From: Phycisphaerae bacterium RAS2
Lineage (GTDB): Bacteria > Planctomycetota > Phycisphaerae > UBA1845 > UTPLA1
DNA: 64,000 nucleotides
Reading direction: 5' to 3'
Assembly (NCBI GenBank): GCA_007753915.1
Contig: CP036352.1
Span: forward strand, 3,473,306-3,537,305
A program made the position numbers and the translations under genes. A model generated the notes under the pieces. It searched no databases, was not told where the DNA came from, and saw nothing but the letters and a program-made list of their open reading frames with translations. This document shows positions 3,046-19,587 of this stretch, piece after piece. The stretch's first letter is position 1, and every line of letters starts with the position of its first letter.

Positions 3046-4200
3046 GTGACGACCAGCCGCGAGCCCGGATTTGAGACCATTTGCGTGCATTTCGCCGAGG
3101 AGCGGCAGATCAACCACGGTGCGGCCGCGCCGCCGCTCTACCAGTGTTCGACATTCACGTACCCCGACGCCGAGAGCTTTGTGGCTCGCCGCGAGGAGTC
3201 GGCGCGATACGACTATTCACGCGTCTCGAACCCGACGACCACGCTGCTGGAGAAAAAAATCGCCCAGCTCGAGCGCGGCGAGGCCTGCCGTGCTTTCGGA
3301 TCAGGCATGGCGGCGGTGTCGGCGGCGATCCTGTCCTGCGTTAAATCCGGCGATCACGTCGTCACGATTGAATCCGTTTACGGCCCGACGCGGCAATTCC
3401 TGTCGCAGTACCTTCCCCGGCTGGGCATCGAGACGACGTTTGTGCGCGGCACGGAGGTGGAGCAATTCGAGTCCGCGTTGCGCCCGAACACGCGACTGAT
3501 CTATCTTGAGTCGCCGTCGAGTCTCATCTTCGCGTTGCAGGACCTTTCGGCCGTGGCGAAGCTGGCGCGATCACGCAATATTTCGACGATCTGCGACAAT
3601 TCGAATGCATCGCCGTATTTCCAGAACCCGCTCACGCTGGGCGTGGACATTGTGCTGCACTCGGCGACGAAGTACATCGGCGGGCACAGCGACGTGGTCG
3701 CGGGGCTGGTCGTCGGCTCGCGGCCGTATATCGACAAGCTATCGCAACAGGAAGGCGAGTTGTTTGGCGGCATGTGCGACCCGTTTGCAAGCTGGTTGCT
3801 CCTGCGCGGGCTGCGCACGCTGGCGATTCGCATGGAGCGACACCAGCGCAGCGCCCGCGAGATCGCCCGATTGCTCGAAACCGATGGGCGGGTCGCAGCC
3901 GTGAATTACAGCGGAACGGAATCGCACGCGCAGACCGCGCTGGCGAAGAAACAGATGCGCGGCCACAGCGGCATGTTCAGCTTCGGCCTGCGTGAATCGA
4001 CACGCGAACGGACGTTTGAAGTGGTTAATCGCCTGCGTCTGTTCTGCATCGGCGTCAGTTGGGGCGGCTTTGAGAGCCTCGCGATTCCGATTGAAGTGCC
4101 CGACCCGCAAAGCGGCCGTCCGACGTGGCTGATCCGCTTGAGCATCGGACTCGAATCGGTGGACGATTTGAAGGCAGACCTTTATCAGGCGCTGGGCTAA
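3046..4200 (+). CDS. Trans-sulfuration family PLP enzyme (Cys/Met metabolism)
   Basis: Pyridoxal-phosphate enzyme of the cystathionine synthase/lyase and methionine gamma-lyase family, 384 residues, cytosolic. The PLP lysine is Lys209 in HSATKYIGGHSDVVAG. Other family marks are YSRVSNPT near residue 58, FGSGMAAVSAA, the active-site tyrosine in VYGPTRQ (residue 112), the Asp-containing CDNSNASPYFQNPL, and SWGGFESLAIP near the C-terminus. The GTG start has AGGAG 9 bases upstream. Cystathionine gamma-synthase, beta- or gamma-lyase and O-acetylhomoserine sulfhydrylase cannot be told apart from sequence alone; the canonical DNTFATPY reads DNSNASPY here. The next gene, kdsC, starts 11 bases later. 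Confidence 0.9.
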   Translation: MTTSREPGFETICVHFAEERQINHGAAAPPLYQCSTFTYPDAESFVARREESARYDYSRVSNPTTTLLEKKIAQLERGEACRAFGSGMAAVSAAILSCVKSGDHVVTIESVYGPTRQFLSQYLPRLGIETTFVRGTEVEQFESALRPNTRLIYLESPSSLIFALQDLSAVAKLARSRNISTICDNSNASPYFQNPLTLGVDIVLHSATKYIGGHSDVVAGLVVGSRPYIDKLSQQEGELFGGMCDPFASWLLLRGLRTLAIRMERHQRSAREIARLLETDGRVAAVNYSGTESHAQTALAKKQMRGHSGMFSFGLRESTRERTFEVVNRLRLFCIGVSWGGFESLAIPIEVPDPQSGRPTWLIRLSIGLESVDDLKADLYQALG

Positions 4201-4211
4201 GATTCCCTTTC

Positions 4212-4709
4212 GTGAGCGAGATTCGATTACTGGTACTCGACGTGGACGGCGTCCTGACGCCCGGTGACCTGATGTATGGCCCGGGCGGCGAGGAGATCAA
4301 GCGCTTTTATGTGCTGGACGGCGGCGCGATTCGCCGCTGGCGCGACGCCGGCTACCACGCCGCCATCATCAGCGGCCGCAGCTCGTCCGCGGTTTCGCGT
4401 CGCGCGGCCGATCTGGGTGTGTCGTTCGTGCGTCAGGGCATGGCCGACAAGGTCGAGCCGTTCCTCGAAGCGTGCAAGGTGCTGGGCGTCGAACCGGGCG
4501 CGACGGCCGTCGTTGGAGACGATTTGCTGGATATTCCGATGATGCGGCTGTGCGCCGTGCCGATCGCCGTGGCGAACGCGGTGCCGGCGGTGAAGCGGTT
4601 CGCGCGATTCGTCACGCGGCGCGCCGGCGGAGACGGCGCCGTACTCGAGGCGGTGGAACGCCTGATGCGACACAATCGGAAGGGACTCCAGGCGAGCGGC
4701 CGCCGGTAG
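4212..4709 (+). CDS. kdsC: KDO 8-phosphate phosphatase, HAD superfamily
   Basis: Cytosolic HAD-type phosphatase that removes phosphate from 3-deoxy-D-manno-octulosonate 8-phosphate during KDO synthesis for LPS inner core. 165 residues from the GTG at 4212, the usual short size of cap-less KdsC. Visible motifs are the nucleophile loop LDVDGVLTPG (Asp10, Asp12), GEEIKRFYVLDGGAIR, the motif II segment AIISGRSSSAV, RQGMADKVEPF with the motif III lysine, and VVGDDLLDIPMM for metal binding. The long in-frame extension to 4125 overlaps the previous gene and is not supported. Its position just before an LptC/OstA-like gene matches the kdsC-lptC-lptA order known in proteobacteria. Confidence 0.9.
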   Translation: MSEIRLLVLDVDGVLTPGDLMYGPGGEEIKRFYVLDGGAIRRWRDAGYHAAIISGRSSSAVSRRAADLGVSFVRQGMADKVEPFLEACKVLGVEPGATAVVGDDLLDIPMMRLCAVPIAVANAVPAVKRFARFVTRRAGGDGAVLEAVERLMRHNRKGLQASGRR

Positions 4710-4752: not shown

Positions 4753-7700
4753 ATGCCACTGGATTCAACGAAACGGAAAAAGATCATCCTCGCGGCGGCG
4801 ACGTTCCTGCTGGGGCTGGCGTCGTACTTTGTCTTTTCGATGGGCGATCGGCGCGTGACGCAGACCCGCTCGCAGAACACCGATGAAGTCGTCCGCAAGT
4901 TCGTCTCCCAGCCGGTCACGACCCAGGCGACGCAGCAGTTCAGCGAGAGCCAGCTCGCCTTCAGCCCCGGCGACCAGACGGTCGTGCGCGTGTACGACGA
5001 CATCACCGGCCGCCTGAAGTACCAGTTCGAAGCGGTGAAATGGGAACCGACGGCCGATCAGGTCTTCCACGTTGAGAAGCTGCTCGTGCAGATCTTCACG
5101 AGCAAGGGCGAGATCACCTACATCAGCAGCGACGAGGCGGAAGTCACGCTCGCGCGCAAGAGCAAGGACCGCATCGAACCGAAGCGCGGCTGGTTGCGCG
5201 GAAATGTGAAGGTAGTCGTCGATCGCACGACGGCCGCCTGGCGCGAGGCCAACCCGGACAAGGCCGAGCGCGACGCGCATCCGGACGAGTTGATTCACGT
5301 CAGCCTGGGCGAGGCGCGCTTCGACCTGGACGATGCCGAGCTGGTGTCCGACGGCGACATCGTGGTCGACAGCGTCGATGCACGAATCGAAAAAGTGCGC
5401 GGGTTGAAAGTGCAGTGGGATCAGCTGGACAACCGGATCGACGTGCTGCGGTTCACGCACGGCGGCTCGATGACGCTGCGCAAGGGCGGCCGCATCGTGG
5501 ACTTCGGCCTGCCGGGCACCGAGCGCGACGCCGGCAAGGAGAAGAAGGATCGCAGCGCGGAAGGTCGCCGCCGGGAAGAGGCTGCCCTGCGCGACGCCAA
5601 CGGCGGAATTCCTCGCGCGTATGCCATGAAGCCCATGTCGGTCGACGTTGTCAGCGCCGAGGAAGCGGCCACGGCGATCCGCACCGAGGGGCTTGTCGCG
5701 AAGGCCAATCGGCCCATGTCGATCGAGGAAGCACCGGCGACGCCCTCCGGCGAGTCGCCCACGAATTCAACGACGAACAAGGCCACGCCGACGCGCTCAT
5801 CGGGCGAGTTCACCGACGCGGTGGCGTCGCTCCAGGCGGAAGCACGCGGCGGCACGTCGGGCGAACTTCGCGCACCGGACGCCGCCCAGACCTTGCTCGC
5901 CGACGGAAAGCGACCGCGGATTCACACCTATCGCGCGGTGTTCAGCAACCAGGTCGTCGTTGAACAGCAGGACGGATTGAAGACAGTCGGCAAAATCGAG
6001 GCCGACCGGCTGGAGATCAACTTTGACTTCGGCAAGGCCGCGCGGGAGAGCATGACATTTCGCGGCAATCCTGTCGGCGCCACGTCGCAACCCGCCGATG
6101 CACCGCCGGTCGCGGAAGCGCCTCGCGCCGAAATGGCGTCCGCGCTGCCCGGCGAGGCAACGGGCGGCAAGACCGGCGAAGAGGACCTTGCACGCCTGCT
6201 GCTGACCTGGGATGGCCCGCTGGAACTTCGCCCGCTCACGATGAACCCGGCGGAGCAAACGGGCCGGCGATTCGATTGCGTGGCCATCGGTAATCCGGTG
6301 CGGCTCCAGAGCGACCAAGGCAAGGGGCATTGCAAGCAACTGGTCTATCGTCACGAACGGCGGCAGGTCTGGCTGTCGGGCGATGAGGCGATGCCGGTGG
6401 AGCTGGCCTTGTCGGCGGCGCGGCGGCTGTCGGGCCGTGAAGTGTTCTTCGATCAGAAGCGCGGCGTGGCGCACGTGGACGGCGCGGGCGCCATGCTCGA
6501 CGACGGCAGCGAGGACGCGAGCCTTCCCAAGTCAGAAGTCGCGTTGGACGCGGGCGACGGCGCGAAGCACAAGCCGCGCGATCCGGTCGAAATCCGCTGG
6601 ACCCGCGGCGTCGATATCGAACTGGGCCAGCGAAAGGTGGAACGCATCAACCCCGCCTCGGGCCGGCCGGAATCCAAGAACAAGGAGTTCCTCCGCCGCG
6701 CCTGGTTTCACGGAAGCGTGCAATTGAATCAGGGCGAGGACTCCCTCGCCGCTGACGAAGTCGCCGTGACCTTCGGCGTGCCGCGCTCCGGCGATCAGAT
6801 CGCCGACAACATTCAACATGTTGACATGTCCGGCGCGGTCCGGCTGCACCAGAAGGGCGACATGATCTTCGCCGAGAAGCTCTCCGCCACGATGATGCTC
6901 TGCGCCGACGGGCAAAGCCGGCCGCACATCGTCGATGCCGAGGGCAACGTCTCGGCGCGGCAGAATCGCGCGGAGTTTCGCGCGCAGAAGATGCACGCGG
7001 TCATGGCCATGTCACCGGCCCCGCCGCCGCGAACCCTGCCCGACGGCCGCACCGTGCAGGACAAACCGCGCCTGGGCATCGAGGAGCTGGACGCGCAGGG
7101 CGATGTGTACGTTTCCGACCCGCAGCAGGGTCTTCAGATCACCAACGCGAAGGTTCTCAAGGCAACGATCCGCAACGGCGAGCAACTGGTCAAGGCGCTC
7201 ATCGAGAGCGCCTCGCCGAAGAAATGGGCCGGCGCCGCCTACACCGACATCGCCGTGTACGGCCACAAGATTGACATCGACATGGACAACGAGTCGATCG
7301 ACGTGCCGGGGCCGGGCCGCGCGTGGCTGATGAGCCGGCAGGATTTCGGCGGCCGCAAGATGAGCAAGCCGACAAAAGTCCATATCGGGTGGAAGGAGCA
7401 GGTTCAGTTTCGCCTGGCGAAGAATTACGGCGTCTTTCTCGGCAAGGTCCGCACAAAGTCCGACGGGTTCACCGTTGATTGCGACAAGCTCACCGTGCGG
7501 TTCGGCAAGGCGCCGCCCGAGCCGGAGGCGACGGCAAAGGCCCCTGGCTGGCTGGATCAACTCTGGCTTGCGCGTGCCGCAACCGGTCGCGCCCGCGACG
7601 ATACACCCAAGTCCCGCCGCGGCGTCACCGGATTTCAAAGCAAGCGGCCCAGGCCCGTCTTCATCGTCGCCGAGGGCCATGCCGAAGCCGTCGGCAGCAG

Positions 7701-8601
7701 CTACCTCTTGCAGCCGACCGATTACGGGCTGAAGCAGGTTTCGGTGTTCGCCGCGATTGTTGGTACGCCTTCGATCCTGCATGCCGTGCCGCGTGACGCA
7801 TGCGTCGCCTTCACCGCGGCGCTGGCGCGCTACGCCGGCTCCATCGACATGCCCTTCACGCCCGATCCCGCGCGCGGCCGACTGCTTAGCCGCATCAGCA
7901 TCTTCGGCGACCAGATCACGACCGATCTTCTCCGCGAGCAGATGTCCGTCCCCGGGGCGGGCATGCTTGGCGTAGAGGACTACCAATTCGCCGCCGCAAC
8001 CGCGCGCCGGCGCGAGGCGGCATCCGGCGCGAGCAGCGGACCGCTCATGAGCTCGATGCGCAGCGACGGCCCGAGCCAGACCATCGTCAAGTGGCGCAAC
8101 GGAATGGATTACATCGTCGATCGCGGCCTCGTCGCCTTTGACCGCGATGTCGAGATGCAACACCGCAGCGGCCGGCAGATGGTGAACAAGGACCAGCTCG
8201 CCACCGCGTTTAACATCACCGAGCGCGCGATGCGCAGCCTCGGCGAGGGGCGGCGCGGCAGCCTCACCTGCGGAAACCTGTTGCTGGAGTTCAGCACGCG
8301 CCGCGGCGTGGCGGCCGGCGGCGAAACCATGGCACGAGCGACGGACCTTGAGCGGCTCATCGCGCGACACGCCGTGCTCCTTCGAGAAAACACGCGCACG
8401 GTCATGGGCGAGCATGTTCAGTTCCTGAAAAGCACGAATGAAGTGCGCGTCGAGGGCAGCGCATCGGCCGACGCCAGCATCACCGATCAGGACGAACGCA
8501 CGCAGAAGTTGAGCATGTGGCGGGGGCCGCTGCTGATCTGGAATCGCAATACCAATCGCATCGAAGCGCCGCAGGCCACGATCCGCGCCAGCCGACGGTG
8601 A
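4753..8601 (+). CDS. Very large LptC/OstA (LptA)-like envelope protein
   Basis: A 1282-residue protein anchored by one N-terminal membrane helix (KKIILAAATFLLGLASYFVF) with the rest predicted to be periplasmic. Residues about 60-240 look like an LptC/OstA domain, with alternating short beta-strand text such as DDITGRLKYQFEAVKWEP and ARFDLDDAELVSDGDIVV. Further OstA-like stretches recur along the chain (HTYRAVFSNQVVVEQQDG; AWFHGSVQLNQGEDSLAADE; YGVFLGKVRTKSDGFTVDCD; VQFLKSTNEVRVEGSA), separated by acidic or Ala/Pro-rich linkers. LptC and LptA carry LPS from the inner membrane across the periplasm. LptC is about 190 residues and LptA about 185, so this chain equals several such units. ATG at 4753 is preferred over TTG at 4747. 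No lptB follows. The family assignment is based on context and fold-like pattern, not a diagnostic motif. Confidence 0.7.
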   Translation: MPLDSTKRKKIILAAATFLLGLASYFVFSMGDRRVTQTRSQNTDEVVRKFVSQPVTTQATQQFSESQLAFSPGDQTVVRVYDDITGRLKYQFEAVKWEPTADQVFHVEKLLVQIFTSKGEITYISSDEAEVTLARKSKDRIEPKRGWLRGNVKVVVDRTTAAWREANPDKAERDAHPDELIHVSLGEARFDLDDAELVSDGDIVVDSVDARIEKVRGLKVQWDQLDNRIDVLRFTHGGSMTLRKGGRIVDFGLPGTERDAGKEKKDRSAEGRRREEAALRDANGGIPRAYAMKPMSVDVVSAEEAATAIRTEGLVAKANRPMSIEEAPATPSGESPTNSTTNKATPTRSSGEFTDAVASLQAEARGGTSGELRAPDAAQTLLADGKRPRIHTYRAVFSNQVVVEQQDGLKTVGKIEADRLEINFDFGKAARESMTFRGNPVGATSQPADAPPVAEAPRAEMASALPGEATGGKTGEEDLARLLLTWDGPLELRPLTMNPAEQTGRRFDCVAIGNPVRLQSDQGKGHCKQLVYRHERRQVWLSGDEAMPVELALSAARRLSGREVFFDQKRGVAHVDGAGAMLDDGSEDASLPKSEVALDAGDGAKHKPRDPVEIRWTRGVDIELGQRKVERINPASGRPESKNKEFLRRAWFHGSVQLNQGEDSLAADEVAVTFGVPRSGDQIADNIQHVDMSGAVRLHQKGDMIFAEKLSATMMLCADGQSRPHIVDAEGNVSARQNRAEFRAQKMHAVMAMSPAPPPRTLPDGRTVQDKPRLGIEELDAQGDVYVSDPQQGLQITNAKVLKATIRNGEQLVKALIESASPKKWAGAAYTDIAVYGHKIDIDMDNESIDVPGPGRAWLMSRQDFGGRKMSKPTKVHIGWKEQVQFRLAKNYGVFLGKVRTKSDGFTVDCDKLTVRFGKAPPEPEATAKAPGWLDQLWLARAATGRARDDTPKSRRGVTGFQSKRPRPVFIVAEGHAEAVGSSYLLQPTDYGLKQVSVFAAIVGTPSILHAVPRDACVAFTAALARYAGSIDMPFTPDPARGRLLSRISIFGDQITTDLLREQMSVPGAGMLGVEDYQFAAATARRREAASGASSGPLMSSMRSDGPSQTIVKWRNGMDYIVDRGLVAFDRDVEMQHRSGRQMVNKDQLATAFNITERAMRSLGEGRRGSLTCGNLLLEFSTRRGVAAGGETMARATDLERLIARHAVLLRENTRTVMGEHVQFLKSTNEVRVEGSASADASITDQDERTQKLSMWRGPLLIWNRNTNRIEAPQATIRASRR

Positions 8602-13755: not shown

Positions 13756-13932
13756 AAAGCGGTAGCGGGCAAGCCGAACGTGGTCGTGGTTTGCGCAAGA
13801 TAGCCCGGAAGCACCGACCTACCCGAGCGGCCATCGCGCCCCCGCCACCGCAAGCGATGGCAAGGCGAGCCAACCAGCCGTGAGAGCCAAGTGGGGATTG
13901 CTCGTCCGTCGACGATGAGTGTGGGAGACCGA

Positions 13933-16900
13933 ATGATGCGGCGCAAGCTTCGCATAACGAAGACGTTTGTTTATTTGTCAATCGTGGGCATGCTGGCGGC
14001 CTTCCCTGCGTCGATGCGGCAGGCATCGGCCGAGGAGCGTCGCTTCGTGGTCATGCTGGCGGTGCCGCGCAAGAGCGCCGGCACCAACCCGATCGTCCTG
14101 GCAAATACCAATCAGATTTGGGACCAGTACTTCGACAAGGTCAAGCCAAACGTCGCATCGTTCGCCGAGTACTGGCACGAGATTTCCTATCGCACGGTCA
14201 CCGTCAGCGGCGATGTGTACGGCTGGGTGGAAGTGCCCTGGCCGGCGCTGCCGATCGGCGACGTGGTGAGCGGACCGGGCGGCGCGACCAACATCGCCGG
14301 CGCGGCCTCGCTGAACGGGTTCCAGATTCAGATCAACAACATCGACGGGGACGGCACGTTCACGCTCGGCGCGAGCGAGCGTTTGCTCGAAGCCGAGCAG
14401 ATGATCCTGATTGACTACAACGGCGATCGCCCGGGCACGGGCACGCCGGTTGACATCATGTCTCCGCTTACCGTTCGCTCTCCGGGACTCGTCGACAACT
14501 GGTGGACGCCGGGCGAGCGGTTCCGGGATCTCAACAACAACGGGCGCTACGACAGACTGCTGGAGCCGACGCGGAGCGGCTGGGGTACGCCGGGATGCAA
14601 TGCAAACGGCGTGAGCATGACGATCGAGCAGACAGAAATCTGCACGGACATCGACCGCGACGGCCAATGGGATTTCCCCGAGCCGTTCGAGGACTTTCTC
14701 GTCAAGTACGATCCGACCGTCAGCAATCCGCCCGATCGCTGGGTGAGGCTCGACCCCAGCCTTAAGAACCAGGATCCGGTCAGCCGTCAATTCGCGATTG
14801 ACTACATCACGCACAATTACCCGGGCAATGTGCAGGCCTTGATCGCGCGATGCGGAAACAACGTTTATGACGGTGCCGATCGCTGGATTGAATCCACCGG
14901 CACCGGCACGAAGATGATTCAGCAGGCCGACTTGAACATCTATCTGACGGATGTCGCGACCGTGCCGCCAGACTCCTTTCTAAATCCATATCCGTGGGAC
15001 TACGAGGGCTGGTGGGCCGATTACTGGCAGGAAGTGCATGTCAATGCCGGTGTGGCCGTTCCGCCGACGCCCAGTGCCCCGGAGTTCCCACTTTTTATTC
15101 CCAACTATGTCACCTTCGATCCGACGCAGCCGACGGGTAATGCCGTCGATGGCACCATTGCATTCAATCCGAATACCGGCGGCTCGCGCGCCCGCGTGGC
15201 GCAACCGATGATACCCTGTGTGCCGGTCGATCTTAACGGTGTTCAGATTGAACCCGGCCCGGATTGTTTACAAGAGGATACCGATCCTGGCGACAATATT
15301 CCTCCGCCGTTGCTCGATCCGTTTCCGGTGGATCCGGTCGATCCGCAAGGCGACGGCGAATACGGCGACGGTTCAGTCGATCCGGGTCAGCCATCCGGCG
15401 GCGGCGAGCGAATCTACCCCGACAGCCTCGATACGAACGGCGACAGCTTCATCGATTTCTACGATGGACCACCCGAATACACCGATCTGCCCTCATCGCG
15501 CTATCACCTGCAGGCGCATTCCTCACTTGGCACGTTTGGCGGATCTCAATACGGCGGCGACGGTCGCCTCGGTGAAGTCACATCGCCCTATGGCACTGAT
15601 TACTACGGTCAGGACATCGGCACCGGTACGCCGTCGGGCGCCGGTGGGCCAGACGGAACCATCCCGCCCGCCGGTCCGTGGGCTTACAACGTGCACGGCG
15701 CCAATGGTTTTGACGCCGGCAACCAGATGTCAATTGAACTGCTGACAAACGTGCCCAACAGTTTTGAGGGCGGGCGCGGTCTGGCCTACGTCAACAGCGA
15801 GATGAAGACCTATTGCGTGAATCCCTCGGCGCGGCAACTGGTTCGCTTTGATTTCCCGACCATGACGACGACGATGCCGATCCCCGTGGAGATCATGGGA
15901 ACGATCACGGGCATCCCGAACAACGAGGACATCGTCGGGTTGACGTACAACTCAAACTCCAACGTGATGTACTGCCTGACCACGCAGTTGTTCGGACTGT
16001 TCGGAACGGTCTACACCGTGGACCGCACCAATGGGCAGTGCACGCTCGCCTTCAACGTGGACTTCTTCGCACCGACGTGCGTTGAAGTCGATCCGAACTC
16101 CGGCATGATGTTCGCCGTCAGCGCACTGGACGACAACCTTTACATCATCGACCCCGGAACCGGTGTCAGCAACATTGTCGGGATGATGGATGAGCCGGTC
16201 TATCAGCTTGCATTCCGCGCCGAGTTCGGCGGGATTCTCTACGGCATTACCCGCTCCATGAACCAATTGGCCACCGTCGACATCTTCACCGCCGACGTGA
16301 CGCCGGGGAACATGGCAGCCGCGCTACCCCCTGTTCAGGACCTCGCGCCCAACGTCGATCAGCCGGCCGAACAGATTTACGCCATCGACAGTTTCAACAA
16401 CGTGTTCGTCATCAACACGCAACCGCCCAGCGCGCCGCCCACCATCTATGGAAAAGTCAACATCAACATCGTATCGGGTGTTAGCCCAATCAAGCGTGAC
16501 TTCAATCTCGACGGCCTGCTCGACCTCGGCGAGTGCCGCGCGCTGAACACCGAAAACTACGCGCTGGATGCGTTCGCCACCACGCCCAACGACGGCGGAC
16601 CTGGAAGTCGGTATCCGTTCAATCGCCGCCGCATGACCGAAGACACCATCGCAGCGCTCGACGAAGCCTTCGACTTCGATGACGTGACCATGGATGTCGG
16701 CGGAACGATGTTTTGTTCGGGCACGATCCTGCTGCCGCCCAATCTCTACGCCGACGGGCTGGCGGCAGGCGGGCGCGGACTCTTCCAGTTGCCCGCGCCG
16801 GCGATGGACCTGCCGATGCTCGTCAATGACAACCTGCCGCCGGGATCGCCGCTGGGCAGGCCGGCGACTGTTCCGACGCAATTCTCCGACTTCGTCACGG

Positions 16901-19587
16901 CCATCGACAGCGTCGGTGAGTCGGGCCAGCAGGTCAGCGACTTCGGCATCGGCCTCATGGCCCACGAGTTCCTGCACGTCTGGGAGGGCTACCCCGACCT
17001 GTACGACTACGACGTTTACATCAACGGCATCGAGAACTTCCCGGTCGGCATCTGGGACATCATGTCGGGCGCGATGGTTCATCCCGCGCCGTTCCTGAAG
17101 GAATTCGGCACCGGGGCGACGGCGGTTCCGCCGCATGAGCCCTGGATTCAGGCCAACGACATCCGCACCGAGATCTCGCCCGGCGTACCGACGACGATCG
17201 TCCTGACCGACTACGCCTTCGACCCGCTCCACGCAGCATATTACTACACGAACCTCAATCGCCCCGGCGAACGGTTCTACTTCTGGCGGCTGACGCGGCA
17301 GATTCCGATCAGCCCGGATCAAATTAACTTTTCGCAAATTCTCCCCGGCGACGGCATGATGATCATGCACACCGATTTCGGGGCCAACTTCGAAGGTCTG
17401 CCGCTCCAGCAGCGCATCGGCGGTCACTTTGCCTACTCGATTCTTCAGTCCGATGGATTGCACCAGTTGGAGAACGGCGAGAATGCCGGCGACGCCGGCG
17501 ATCCGTTCACGACGGGCAACGTTTGGAACACCGTCACCGACCCGAATTCCAACTGGTACGGCGTCAACCCGCAAAGCGGTATTCAGATCACCAACATCAT
17601 CACGCAGCCGACGCACTCGCTCGTGACGTTCCTGTGGTTCTCGCGCGAAGTGCCCGAGCTGCGCTTCATTCGTCCGCCCGGAGGCACCGCGCCGAACCAG
17701 CTCTATCCGCTTCAATTCGAGGCGTTTGACTTCGCCGGCGGGACCAACATTGAGATCTACGCCGACAACGACTCGTCGGGGTACAACGGTGTCCTGCTAA
17801 GCCAGGGCATCAAAGGCAATCCCGGTGTCGTCAATGGCACGCGGCAGATTCCGCTCGCCGGGTTAAGCGACGGAACGTATCGCTTCTATGCCCGGCTTGT
17901 CCCCGGACCCGGTCAGGACGGCGTCGTCGATCCTTCCAACTCCACACCTCGGCCGGACGTCACCAACAAGGGCCGCGGCACGCTCGGCGCGATCGCCGTG
18001 AACATCGCGGCTTCCAAGCTCGAAGGCTGGTCGGTCACCTGCATCGACGACTCGACCGCCGGCGCCGAAGTCTGGCGCGTCGAAGGCACGCTCTCGGGGC
18101 AATTGGCCAACGCCACCACCGGCGTGCCGTACAACTCGGCGGCGGCCGGGCTTTCATTCACCGTCGTTTCGAATGCCCTGATCGGCGGCGGCGGTTCCAC
18201 CACCGTCAACACGATCGGCGGGCAATTCATACTTGAAGACCCCACAGCCAACTTTGTCGCCACGCAGTTCCGCGCCGGCGACCAGGTCCGCATCACCGGC
18301 GGCAGCGGCGTGACACCGGGCTTCTACACGATTCTCTCCGTGCCGACTAACAAGCGCCTGCGCCTGGCCACCAATCCAGGCACGGGTACGGCTGTCACCT
18401 ATCGCGTCTGGAGCTTTACAGACGGCAACCCGAATGGCGTCCCCGATCGCATTACGATGGTCACCACGGGCAAGACGGCCTACAGCGCCCCGATCCAGGT
18501 CATCAACGCGACGGTTGTGCCGCAACTGTTCCCGGCGATCGCCGTGAGTTTCCCGGATGATTTGATCAATCCGAATCGCACGGCGCCGCTGCGCGTAACG
18601 TTTGACGGCAGCGAGTCGCGCGACGAGCAGGGTTTGCTCAATCCGAACCTGACGTTCCTTTGGAACTTCGGCGACGGGACAACGTCGACCCTGCCGGTCG
18701 TCACGAAGACCTACAACAACCCATCGCCTCCGGGCGGCTACACGGTCACGCTTACCGTCACGAACCCGCTCTCGGGTCCGCCGCCGGTCACCGGCATGAC
18801 CACCGCCCAGGTCGTCGTGAACGAGGCCTTCATCGACACCGACGGCGACGGCATCCAGGACTTCAACGACAACTGTCCGGACAATGCCAACCCGACCCAG
18901 GCCGATACCGATGGCGACAGCTTCGGTGACGCCTGCGACAACTGCCCATTCATCTCCAACCCGTCCCAGGCTGACGGCGACAACGACGGCATGGGCGATC
19001 CGTGTGACAACGACCTCGACGGTGACGGCGTGCCGAACAACATCGACAATTGCCCGCTGATCTTCAACCCGAGCCAGACCGACAGCGACGGCGATGGGTT
19101 CGCGGATGCGTGCGACAATTGTCCGAACAACGCCAATGCCGACCAGACCAACGGCGATTCCGACTCGGCCGGCGACGTCTGTGACGGTTGCCCGGTTGAT
19201 CCGGTCAAGACGACTCCGGGCGTCTGCGGATGCGGGGTGCCCGACATCGATCTCGACGGCGACGGATTTGTTGACTGCATCAGCGGCGACGGCGGCGGCC
19301 CGGTCGCGCCCACCGACACGGACAACGACGGCGTGCCGGACACGCTCGACAATTGTCCGTTGATCGCCAACCCGCTCCAGCGCGACAGCGACAACGACGG
19401 CATCGGCGACCTGTGCGACACGGCCCCCGGCGGCCCGGGCACAACGCCGACCCCGATCCCGACACCTGCCGCCTGCGGTGTCGGATCTGGAAGCTGCGGT
19501 GCCGGTGGTCTGTTGCCGCTCATGGCCCTGGGAGTCGGGATCCGACGGCGGATTCGCACGAACCGCCGACCGCACCGGACGCTTTAA
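13933..19587 (+). CDS. Giant secreted M6-like metalloprotease with PKD and TSP3 repeats
   Basis: About 1884 residues. A signal peptide ([19 protein letters not shown]) precedes an N-terminal region resembling immune-inhibitor-A/M6 proteases. The zinc site HEFLH (residues 1011-1015) is followed by [10 protein letters not shown] and then GIWDIMSGA, the Met-turn. A middle stretch (about 640-850) reads like a repeated-measurement beta domain. A PKD domain lies near 1535-1630 ([13 protein letters not shown]). Residues about 1634-1830 are thrombospondin type-3 calcium-binding repeats ([25 protein letters not shown]). The end has a Cys-Gly motif, hydrophobic helix [11 protein letters not shown] and a run of Arg, resembling MYXO-CTERM-like surface sorting signals. 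ATG 13933 has GGGAG 5 bases upstream. Followed by a strong terminator. Confidence 0.8.

Follow-up and report, generated by a model that had tools for sequence, protein, structure and literature searches.

How does a planctomycete carry lipopolysaccharide (LPS) across its periplasm? The question is raised by a locus of Phycisphaerae bacterium RAS2, from whose one-contig, 4.3-Mb genome we analysed a window of 64,000 nucleotides (G000:C1:3473306-3537305; positions below are those of the window unless a contig or locus is named). In Proteobacteria the gene order is kdsC-lptC-lptA. In the window, kdsC is followed by one long open frame (4753..8601, plus strand), which starts with ATG and holds 1282 codons and a stop. 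An initial annotation had proposed that its product, a membrane-anchored protein with several OstA/LptC-like stretches, forms one continuous periplasmic bridge for LPS instead of an LptA oligomer. Our analysis makes it probable that the 1282-residue protein is an inner-membrane-anchored, one-chain periplasmic Lpt bridge, replacing both LptC and the LptA oligomer.

We confirmed the long single frame beside kdsC as a real gene, its place and length both being as first annotated. The upstream gene, at 4125..4709 on the same strand (start codon provisional), is that of 3-deoxy-D-manno-octulosonic acid (KDO)-8-phosphate phosphatase: TIGR01670 matches it with 138 bits against a cut-off of 106.95 (G000:C1:3477526-3477981), and its Pfam matches are to generic HAD hydrolases. 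The gap between the two frames is 43 bases, and a promoter and terminator scan found no signal exceeding shuffles. The protein begins with positive residues, among them KRKK, followed by a single hydrophobic stretch (about residues 10-32, 4780..4848, plus strand). This putative membrane anchor is in keeping with the initial annotation and coincides with a model helix at residues 5-32, albeit at a predicted local distance difference test (pLDDT) score below 50.

Family searches placed the chain with LptA and the N-terminal domain of LptD. PF03968 (LptD_N/LptA) matches residues 649-703 above its cut-off (E 2e-10, 41.4 bits against 20.4). The NCBIfam LptA model, TIGR03002, matches with E 4.2e-8 and 33.2 bits, under its equivalog cut-off of 71.7; the protein contains LptA-like units, yet is not classed as LptA by that cut-off. 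A phmmer search of PDB with the single protein gave no match at E up to 10. A profile of 40 aligned homologues, this protein included, matched the LptD N-terminal domain (5iv9_A, E 2.5e-4), LptA (8onu_A, E 0.0019; 7zax_A, E 0.014) and LptC (6mi7_C, E 0.013) at different positions along the chain, and its C-terminal part alone had LptA as the top PDB match (E 0.031). Among the 40 homologues, PF03968 was found in 35 and PF06835 (LptC) in 14 at E up to 0.1, and TIGR03002 in 27 and TIGR04409 (LptC) in nine at E up to 1e-3. The middle of the profile and its C-terminus are partial repeats of one another (70 columns, hhalign probability 94.3, E 9.8e-8); between the N-terminal and C-terminal parts no relationship was recognisable (probability 4.9). 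With this repeat, and with the family present in 58 of 61 related genomes, RAS2 among them, the OstA/LptC-like stretches of the initial annotation go beyond chance, LptA being matched above a cut-off and LptC weakly.

Predicted structures supplied the layout. AlphaFold2 models were made of two overlapping pieces, residues 1-780 and 470-1282, from alignments of 12 and 10 rows; relatives were searched with a closer set of 11, the alignment of 40 being too divergent as a search query. Mean pLDDT was 67 for the first piece, with most beta parts at 75-92 and values below 50 at residues 1-69 and 429-477 and over most of the linker; for the second piece it was 74.9. Behind the anchor, residues 67-246 or so (4951..5490) are predicted to form an LptC-like jellyroll: residues 72-246 of the model align to LptC 6mit_C with Z 10.9 (root-mean-square deviation, rmsd, 3.1; 138 aligned), where TIGR04409 matches below its cut-off. 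The chain would thus start as LptC does, with one N-terminal membrane helix and then a jellyroll. There follows a variable, probably disordered linker (about residues 255-386, 5515..5910; pLDDT below 50 at 255-306, 308-343 and 370-386, with a helix between), across which the homologue alignment is strongly variable in length. Next comes an OstA/LptA-like jellyroll block of about residues 391-426 and 480-920 (5923..7512; 429-477 at low confidence), which holds the PF03968 match. Here the model resembles the N-terminal part of LptD at residues 478-724, approximately (4q35_A: Z 11.9, rmsd 3.8, 166 aligned), and LptA at residues 609-780 (2r19_A: Z 8.9, rmsd 2.8, 112 aligned). A mostly low-confidence stretch (about residues 922-1039, 7516..7869), with a confident strand near 966-985, precedes a C-terminal LptA-like unit of about residues 1094-1281 (8032..8595; like all these features, on the plus strand). 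The predicted fold of this last unit is the LptA jellyroll, with 126 of 135 residues aligned to E. coli LptA 2r19_A at Z 14.7 and rmsd 2.2 Å. Foldseek ranked LptDE chains first for residues 470-1282 (E 7.4e-8, in long alignments with TM-scores of only 0.09-0.18) and an LptC chain first for residues 1-780 (E 1.3e-3), where no match reached E 0.001 or better. Barrels, OspA sheets and teneurin-like proteins, also returned by the fold searches, were taken as a common beta arrangement. Far from lacking beta-jellyroll repeats, the outcome that would have counted against the initial annotation, the models are rich in jellyroll.

A first scan for related loci had found no relative; ten related loci then came from named records whose titles read Planctomycetota, Phycisphaerae, Phycisphaerales, Planctomycetaceae or uncultured planctomycete. 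We extracted 40 loci from other genomes, and 39 of them have the gene as a single frame of 1052-1306 residues, which in one case (L055) begins at a contig end. Directly upstream on the same strand stands kdsC in 37 of the 40, the exceptions being L055, where there is no room, and L060 and L061, which belong to one genus; the genes downstream vary. When 81 genomes of the order were scanned with PF03968 at E up to 0.01, every listed match (in 21 genomes) fell in a frame of 933-1321 codons and no small separate lptA was among them, in a scan so insensitive that most genomes carrying the long chain gave no match. The single locus that reads as two frames (L051:5265-8965 of G014; the same gene is in L090, CP030884.1) seems, by eye, to shift frame in a brief stretch of A that precedes the main OstA block. 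Its second frame, whose start maps to a jellyroll strand, lacks an export signal there, which disfavours a natural gene fission; a frameshift or an error in sequencing is the more probable cause of the two frames.

The rest of the Lpt machine is recognisable elsewhere in the genome. LptB lies outside the long-chain locus, at G000:C1:266273 (316 bits, above cut-off), LptF/LptG matches occur in two frames with 387 and 620 codons open, and LptD (PF04453) is matched above its cut-off in a separate frame. No PF06835 match, and hence no separate LptC, was found in the genome at 1e-3; at E up to 10, PF03968 matched only the long-chain and LptD frames, and OstA_2 (PF13100) had no match. An LptF/LptG-family permease outside the window (L037:175-1953, G000:C1 about 1003559-1005250) is 592 residues long with an approximate start, where about 360 is usual for the family. 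Its family match is divided around a long middle part that holds, by eye, an OstA-like phrase, and its receiving jellyroll may be enlarged too.

Does the arrangement extend beyond the order? We surveyed 147 genomes of the phylum, choosing frames by length without a gene finder, with starts therefore approximate. Matches to kdsC at E up to 1e-15 were present in 122 of them. At 84 of 121 kdsC loci outside the genome of RAS2, a same-strand frame of at least 480 residues begins between -400 and +600 bases from the kdsC end; 66 of these neighbours have at least 800 residues and 19 show a four-base overlap, as in coupled genes. The remaining 37 loci have no such neighbour. Five of the 121 loci have less than 1500 bases downstream, and 27 had first been fetched for an LptC or family match, a bias towards the positive locus in genomes with two kdsC genes (e.g. 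G183). The family profile (hmmsearch E up to 0.01 at Z 100000, or hhalign probability of at least 50) matches 51 of the 84 long neighbours; none of 76 control proteins, which cover the hhalign arm only and were not selected for beta-strand richness, reached a probability of 50 (maximum 1.5). Counted separately, LptD_N was found in 40 and LptC in 32 of the 84 by Pfam at 1e-3. Since 33 have no profile support, and HDOD, HD, FliK and TatA families have one match each, some long kdsC neighbours are unrelated. The apparent replacement of the small Lpt carriers by one long anchored protein, and the recurrence of similar long proteins beside kdsC in many relatives, suggest a preformed bridge whose length is set. 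The long chain is not always next to kdsC: G106 and G157 have the two at separate places.

Genome-wide, the 40-sequence profile matches 46 of the 147 genomes. PF06835 matches 28, in 24 of them within an open frame of 522-1195 codons, and its cut-off is passed by phylum relatives in such long frames; the other four are G086 (174 residues, behind kdsC), G075 (330 residues), G087 (cut by a contig end) and G076 (on a presumed contaminant contig). PF03968 matches 31 genomes, mostly in frames of at least 642 codons, some of them LptD judging from length, with smaller frames in G160, G115, G130, G069, G064 and G076. The initial annotation had named homologues beside separate lptA and lptC genes as evidence that would tell against it: among the PF03968 matches listed for the order (21 of 81 genomes) none came to light, and elsewhere in the phylum there are a few small LptA-like or LptC frames.

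Several of these loci deserve a description of their own. In family f22 (G115, G130 and G069; L172:792-1820, L162 and L164) a secreted-looking protein of 343-384 residues follows kdsC, and the genomes also hold, elsewhere, a separate LptA-like frame of 169-207 codons; perhaps this is a shorter version of the bridge together with an LptA. Of the 28 genomes matched by LptC, G086 (2.1 Mb) is the only one in which an uncut small lptC was seen to follow kdsC (L111:4507-5031); its 174-residue product has a lipoprotein-signal-like N-terminus by eye, and the locus also holds a SIS/CBS isomerase-like protein. The separate lptC-lptA-lptB set of G076 (L118:1-5026) was rejected as a counter-example. LptC, LptA and an ATP-binding cassette ATPase are confirmed there by Pfam, with an isomerase before them and an RpoN-like protein after them by eye, an order known from Alphaproteobacteria; since, in addition, the kdsC of G076 is on another contig, next to an 877-residue neighbour of unsupported homology, L118 is probably a binning contaminant. 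Such a proteobacterial-looking contig in a planctomycete bin can mislead surveys that look for separate lpt genes. Finally, kdsC lies within a 551-residue open frame in L150 (G101), and some other kdsC frames have 480-980 codons; perhaps they are fusions with another enzyme.

How, then, might the one-chain bridge work? At its N-terminus the helix, together with the LptC-like jellyroll, would dock on LptB2FG and receive lipid from LptF. The flexible linker would connect this part to the series of LptA-like jellyroll units, and these would hand the lipid onward, the last of them, at the C-terminus, being stacked edge to edge against LptD's N-terminal jellyroll. By its position after LptC, the linker may let the bridge swing, dock or thread past the cell wall. 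Passages of a 2023 review describe Lpt as jellyroll units along which LPS moves from LptF to LptC, LptA and LptD (PMC10094684). From this route and the anatomy of the chain, lipid most likely enters at the LptC-like part and is transferred through the LptA-like units to LptD. Docking partners, a continuous groove, direction, cargo and the span of the bridge are all proposed in this conditional sense.

Several observations weigh against such a bridge. The LptC models do not reach their cut-offs in the protein itself: PF06835 gives E 0.24 and 11.4 bits against 21, and TIGR04409, at residues 73-132, E 5.6e-5 and 22.7 bits against an equivalog cut-off of 38, so that by these measures the sequence would not be classed as LptC. 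A profile of residues 50-255 alone has LptC as its top PDB match, insignificantly (E 0.71), and the LptC identity therefore rests on the relatives and the predicted fold. The linker of about 130 residues and the mostly low-confidence region 922-1039 may interrupt the jellyroll series. A divergent separate LptA may lie under the sensitivity of the profiles. Lastly, five f35 genomes (G082, G103, G122, G137 and G152) have profile matches in frames of 994-1098 codons (loci L141 and L142 for two of them) and no kdsC match at E up to 1e-15, which loosens the tie to KDO-LPS; perhaps these five have a long bridge without KDO synthesis by the kdsC enzyme. This last point bears on cargo in another family and so leaves our estimate for the present protein unmoved. 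The initial annotation is thus partly supported. Its composition stands, with one LptC-like and several LptA-like jellyroll units in a single chain and no separate LptC or LptA found in the genome; a continuous groove would have to cross both the mostly low-confidence linker that splits LptC from the OstA units and the similar stretch at about 922-1039, and the reach to LptD and LPS as the cargo are proposals.

Which other readings would accommodate these data? The strongest, still unlikely, is that the protein is an LptC-LptA fusion too short to be a full bridge, which acts together with a further, very divergent LptA-like protein or by forming oligomers. The long low-confidence stretches in the models would suit it, as would the pairing, in f22, of a short post-kdsC protein with a separate LptA-like frame, and the insensitivity of the LptA profile, PF03968 having been matched at E up to 0.01 in 21 of the 81 order genomes, against 58 of 61 relatives with the protein. 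Yet the own-genome search at E up to 10 found PF03968 in the long-chain and LptD frames only and PF13100 nowhere, and none of the 81 genomes has a listed PF03968 frame shorter than 933 codons.

It is also rather improbable that the same bridge carries a different envelope lipid. The f35 genomes, with long profile-matching frames and no kdsC match, would fit this idea, and passages of PMC8407342 describe an Lpt apparatus in Treponema pallidum that serves a non-LPS substrate. Against it stand, in RAS2, the KDO-synthesis gene kdsC next door and the matches to LptB, LptF/G and LptD in the genome.

Far less credible is the view that the chain transfers phospholipid, as an AsmA/TamB-like protein with no more than a resemblance to Lpt. 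Like those, the protein is a long, anchored, periplasmic beta protein, and TamB has a weak match (E 0.029) in one of the 40 homologues; but no AsmA or TamB match was listed for the protein itself at E up to 10 (the HMMER filters discard most weak matches), neither family is among those listed for the 84 long kdsC neighbours, and by sequence as by fold the protein comes closest to LptA, LptC and LptD. This origin was set aside as very improbable.

That two or more genes were wrongly joined by assembly or frame reading can practically be dismissed, for the two frames of G014, the one such case in 40 loci from other genomes, stand against a single frame in the one-contig own genome and in the 39 others, and the second of them begins at a jellyroll-strand position with no export signal.

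Among known systems, the one-chain bridge most closely recalls LptC and LptA of E. coli and other Proteobacteria: the fold classes are the same, the LptC-type anchor and jellyroll come first and the LptA-type units after, LptB, LptF/G and LptD are matched in the genome, and kdsC adjoins. It differs in being one 1282-residue chain rather than two small proteins with an LptA oligomer, in its long linker and in having LptB outside the locus. The likeness to the LptD N-terminal domain, which shares PF03968 with LptA, is seen at residues 649-703 by sequence and about 478-724 by predicted fold, whereas no barrel is matched in the long chain and a separate LptD frame exists. OstA_2 proteins, multi-repeat proteins of Bacteroidota, also have OstA-like units within a single chain, but PF13100 is without a match in the RAS2 genome and matches four of the 84 long kdsC neighbours in the phylum. 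LetB is an MCE-domain protein. Single chains that act as transenvelope lipid bridges in place of a shuttle or small subunits, the design proposed here, are described for the elongated MlaD of Veillonella parvula (PMC10665443) and for LetAB (PMC8727689); these belong to a different pathway and family, MlaD having an MCE domain (PMC10665443).

Two other regions of the window are mentioned for completeness, both from translations read by eye. At 393-2144 on the minus strand lie genes resembling those for pilin/GspG and for GspF, from a type II secretion or pilus system. At 13891-19587 on the plus strand, a secreted-looking protein of 1898 residues has an HExxH stretch and a part resembling PKD, along with calcium-binding repeats that are thrombospondin type 3-like.

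Many Gram-negative bacteria cannot live without the Lpt system, which is also a drug target. In the titles, abstract openings and passages listed by our searches of the open-licence PMC literature, we found no report of a natural LptC-LptA chain. Passages of PMC8727689 contrast the single-polypeptide bridge of LetAB with Lpt, bridged by interacting small proteins, and how many LptA units make up the bridge is termed unknown in the 2023 review (PMC10094684). A 2012 genome analysis reported LptD in every Planctomycetes genome examined and judged BamA and LptD alone, of the outer-membrane biogenesis genes that it tested, to be specific and conserved enough; a term search of its main text returned neither LptA nor LptC (PMC3422733). 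If it is indeed a bridge, the long chain would break the rule that Lpt bridges the periplasm with small interacting proteins. A covalent bridge has a fixed stoichiometry and length, so that single units could be removed or added as a test of the bridge model. The long chain may also be part of the reason why Planctomycetes were scored, in PMC8871954, as having 'largely reduced' Lpt and Tol-Pal systems. It is quite possible, though we stop just short of calling it probable, that Planctomycetota export LPS over a fused, anchored bridge of about 340-1,300 residues, depending on the family, which replaces the LptA oligomer and whose gene-fixed length would serve as a ruler of the distance between the membranes or be tuned to it.

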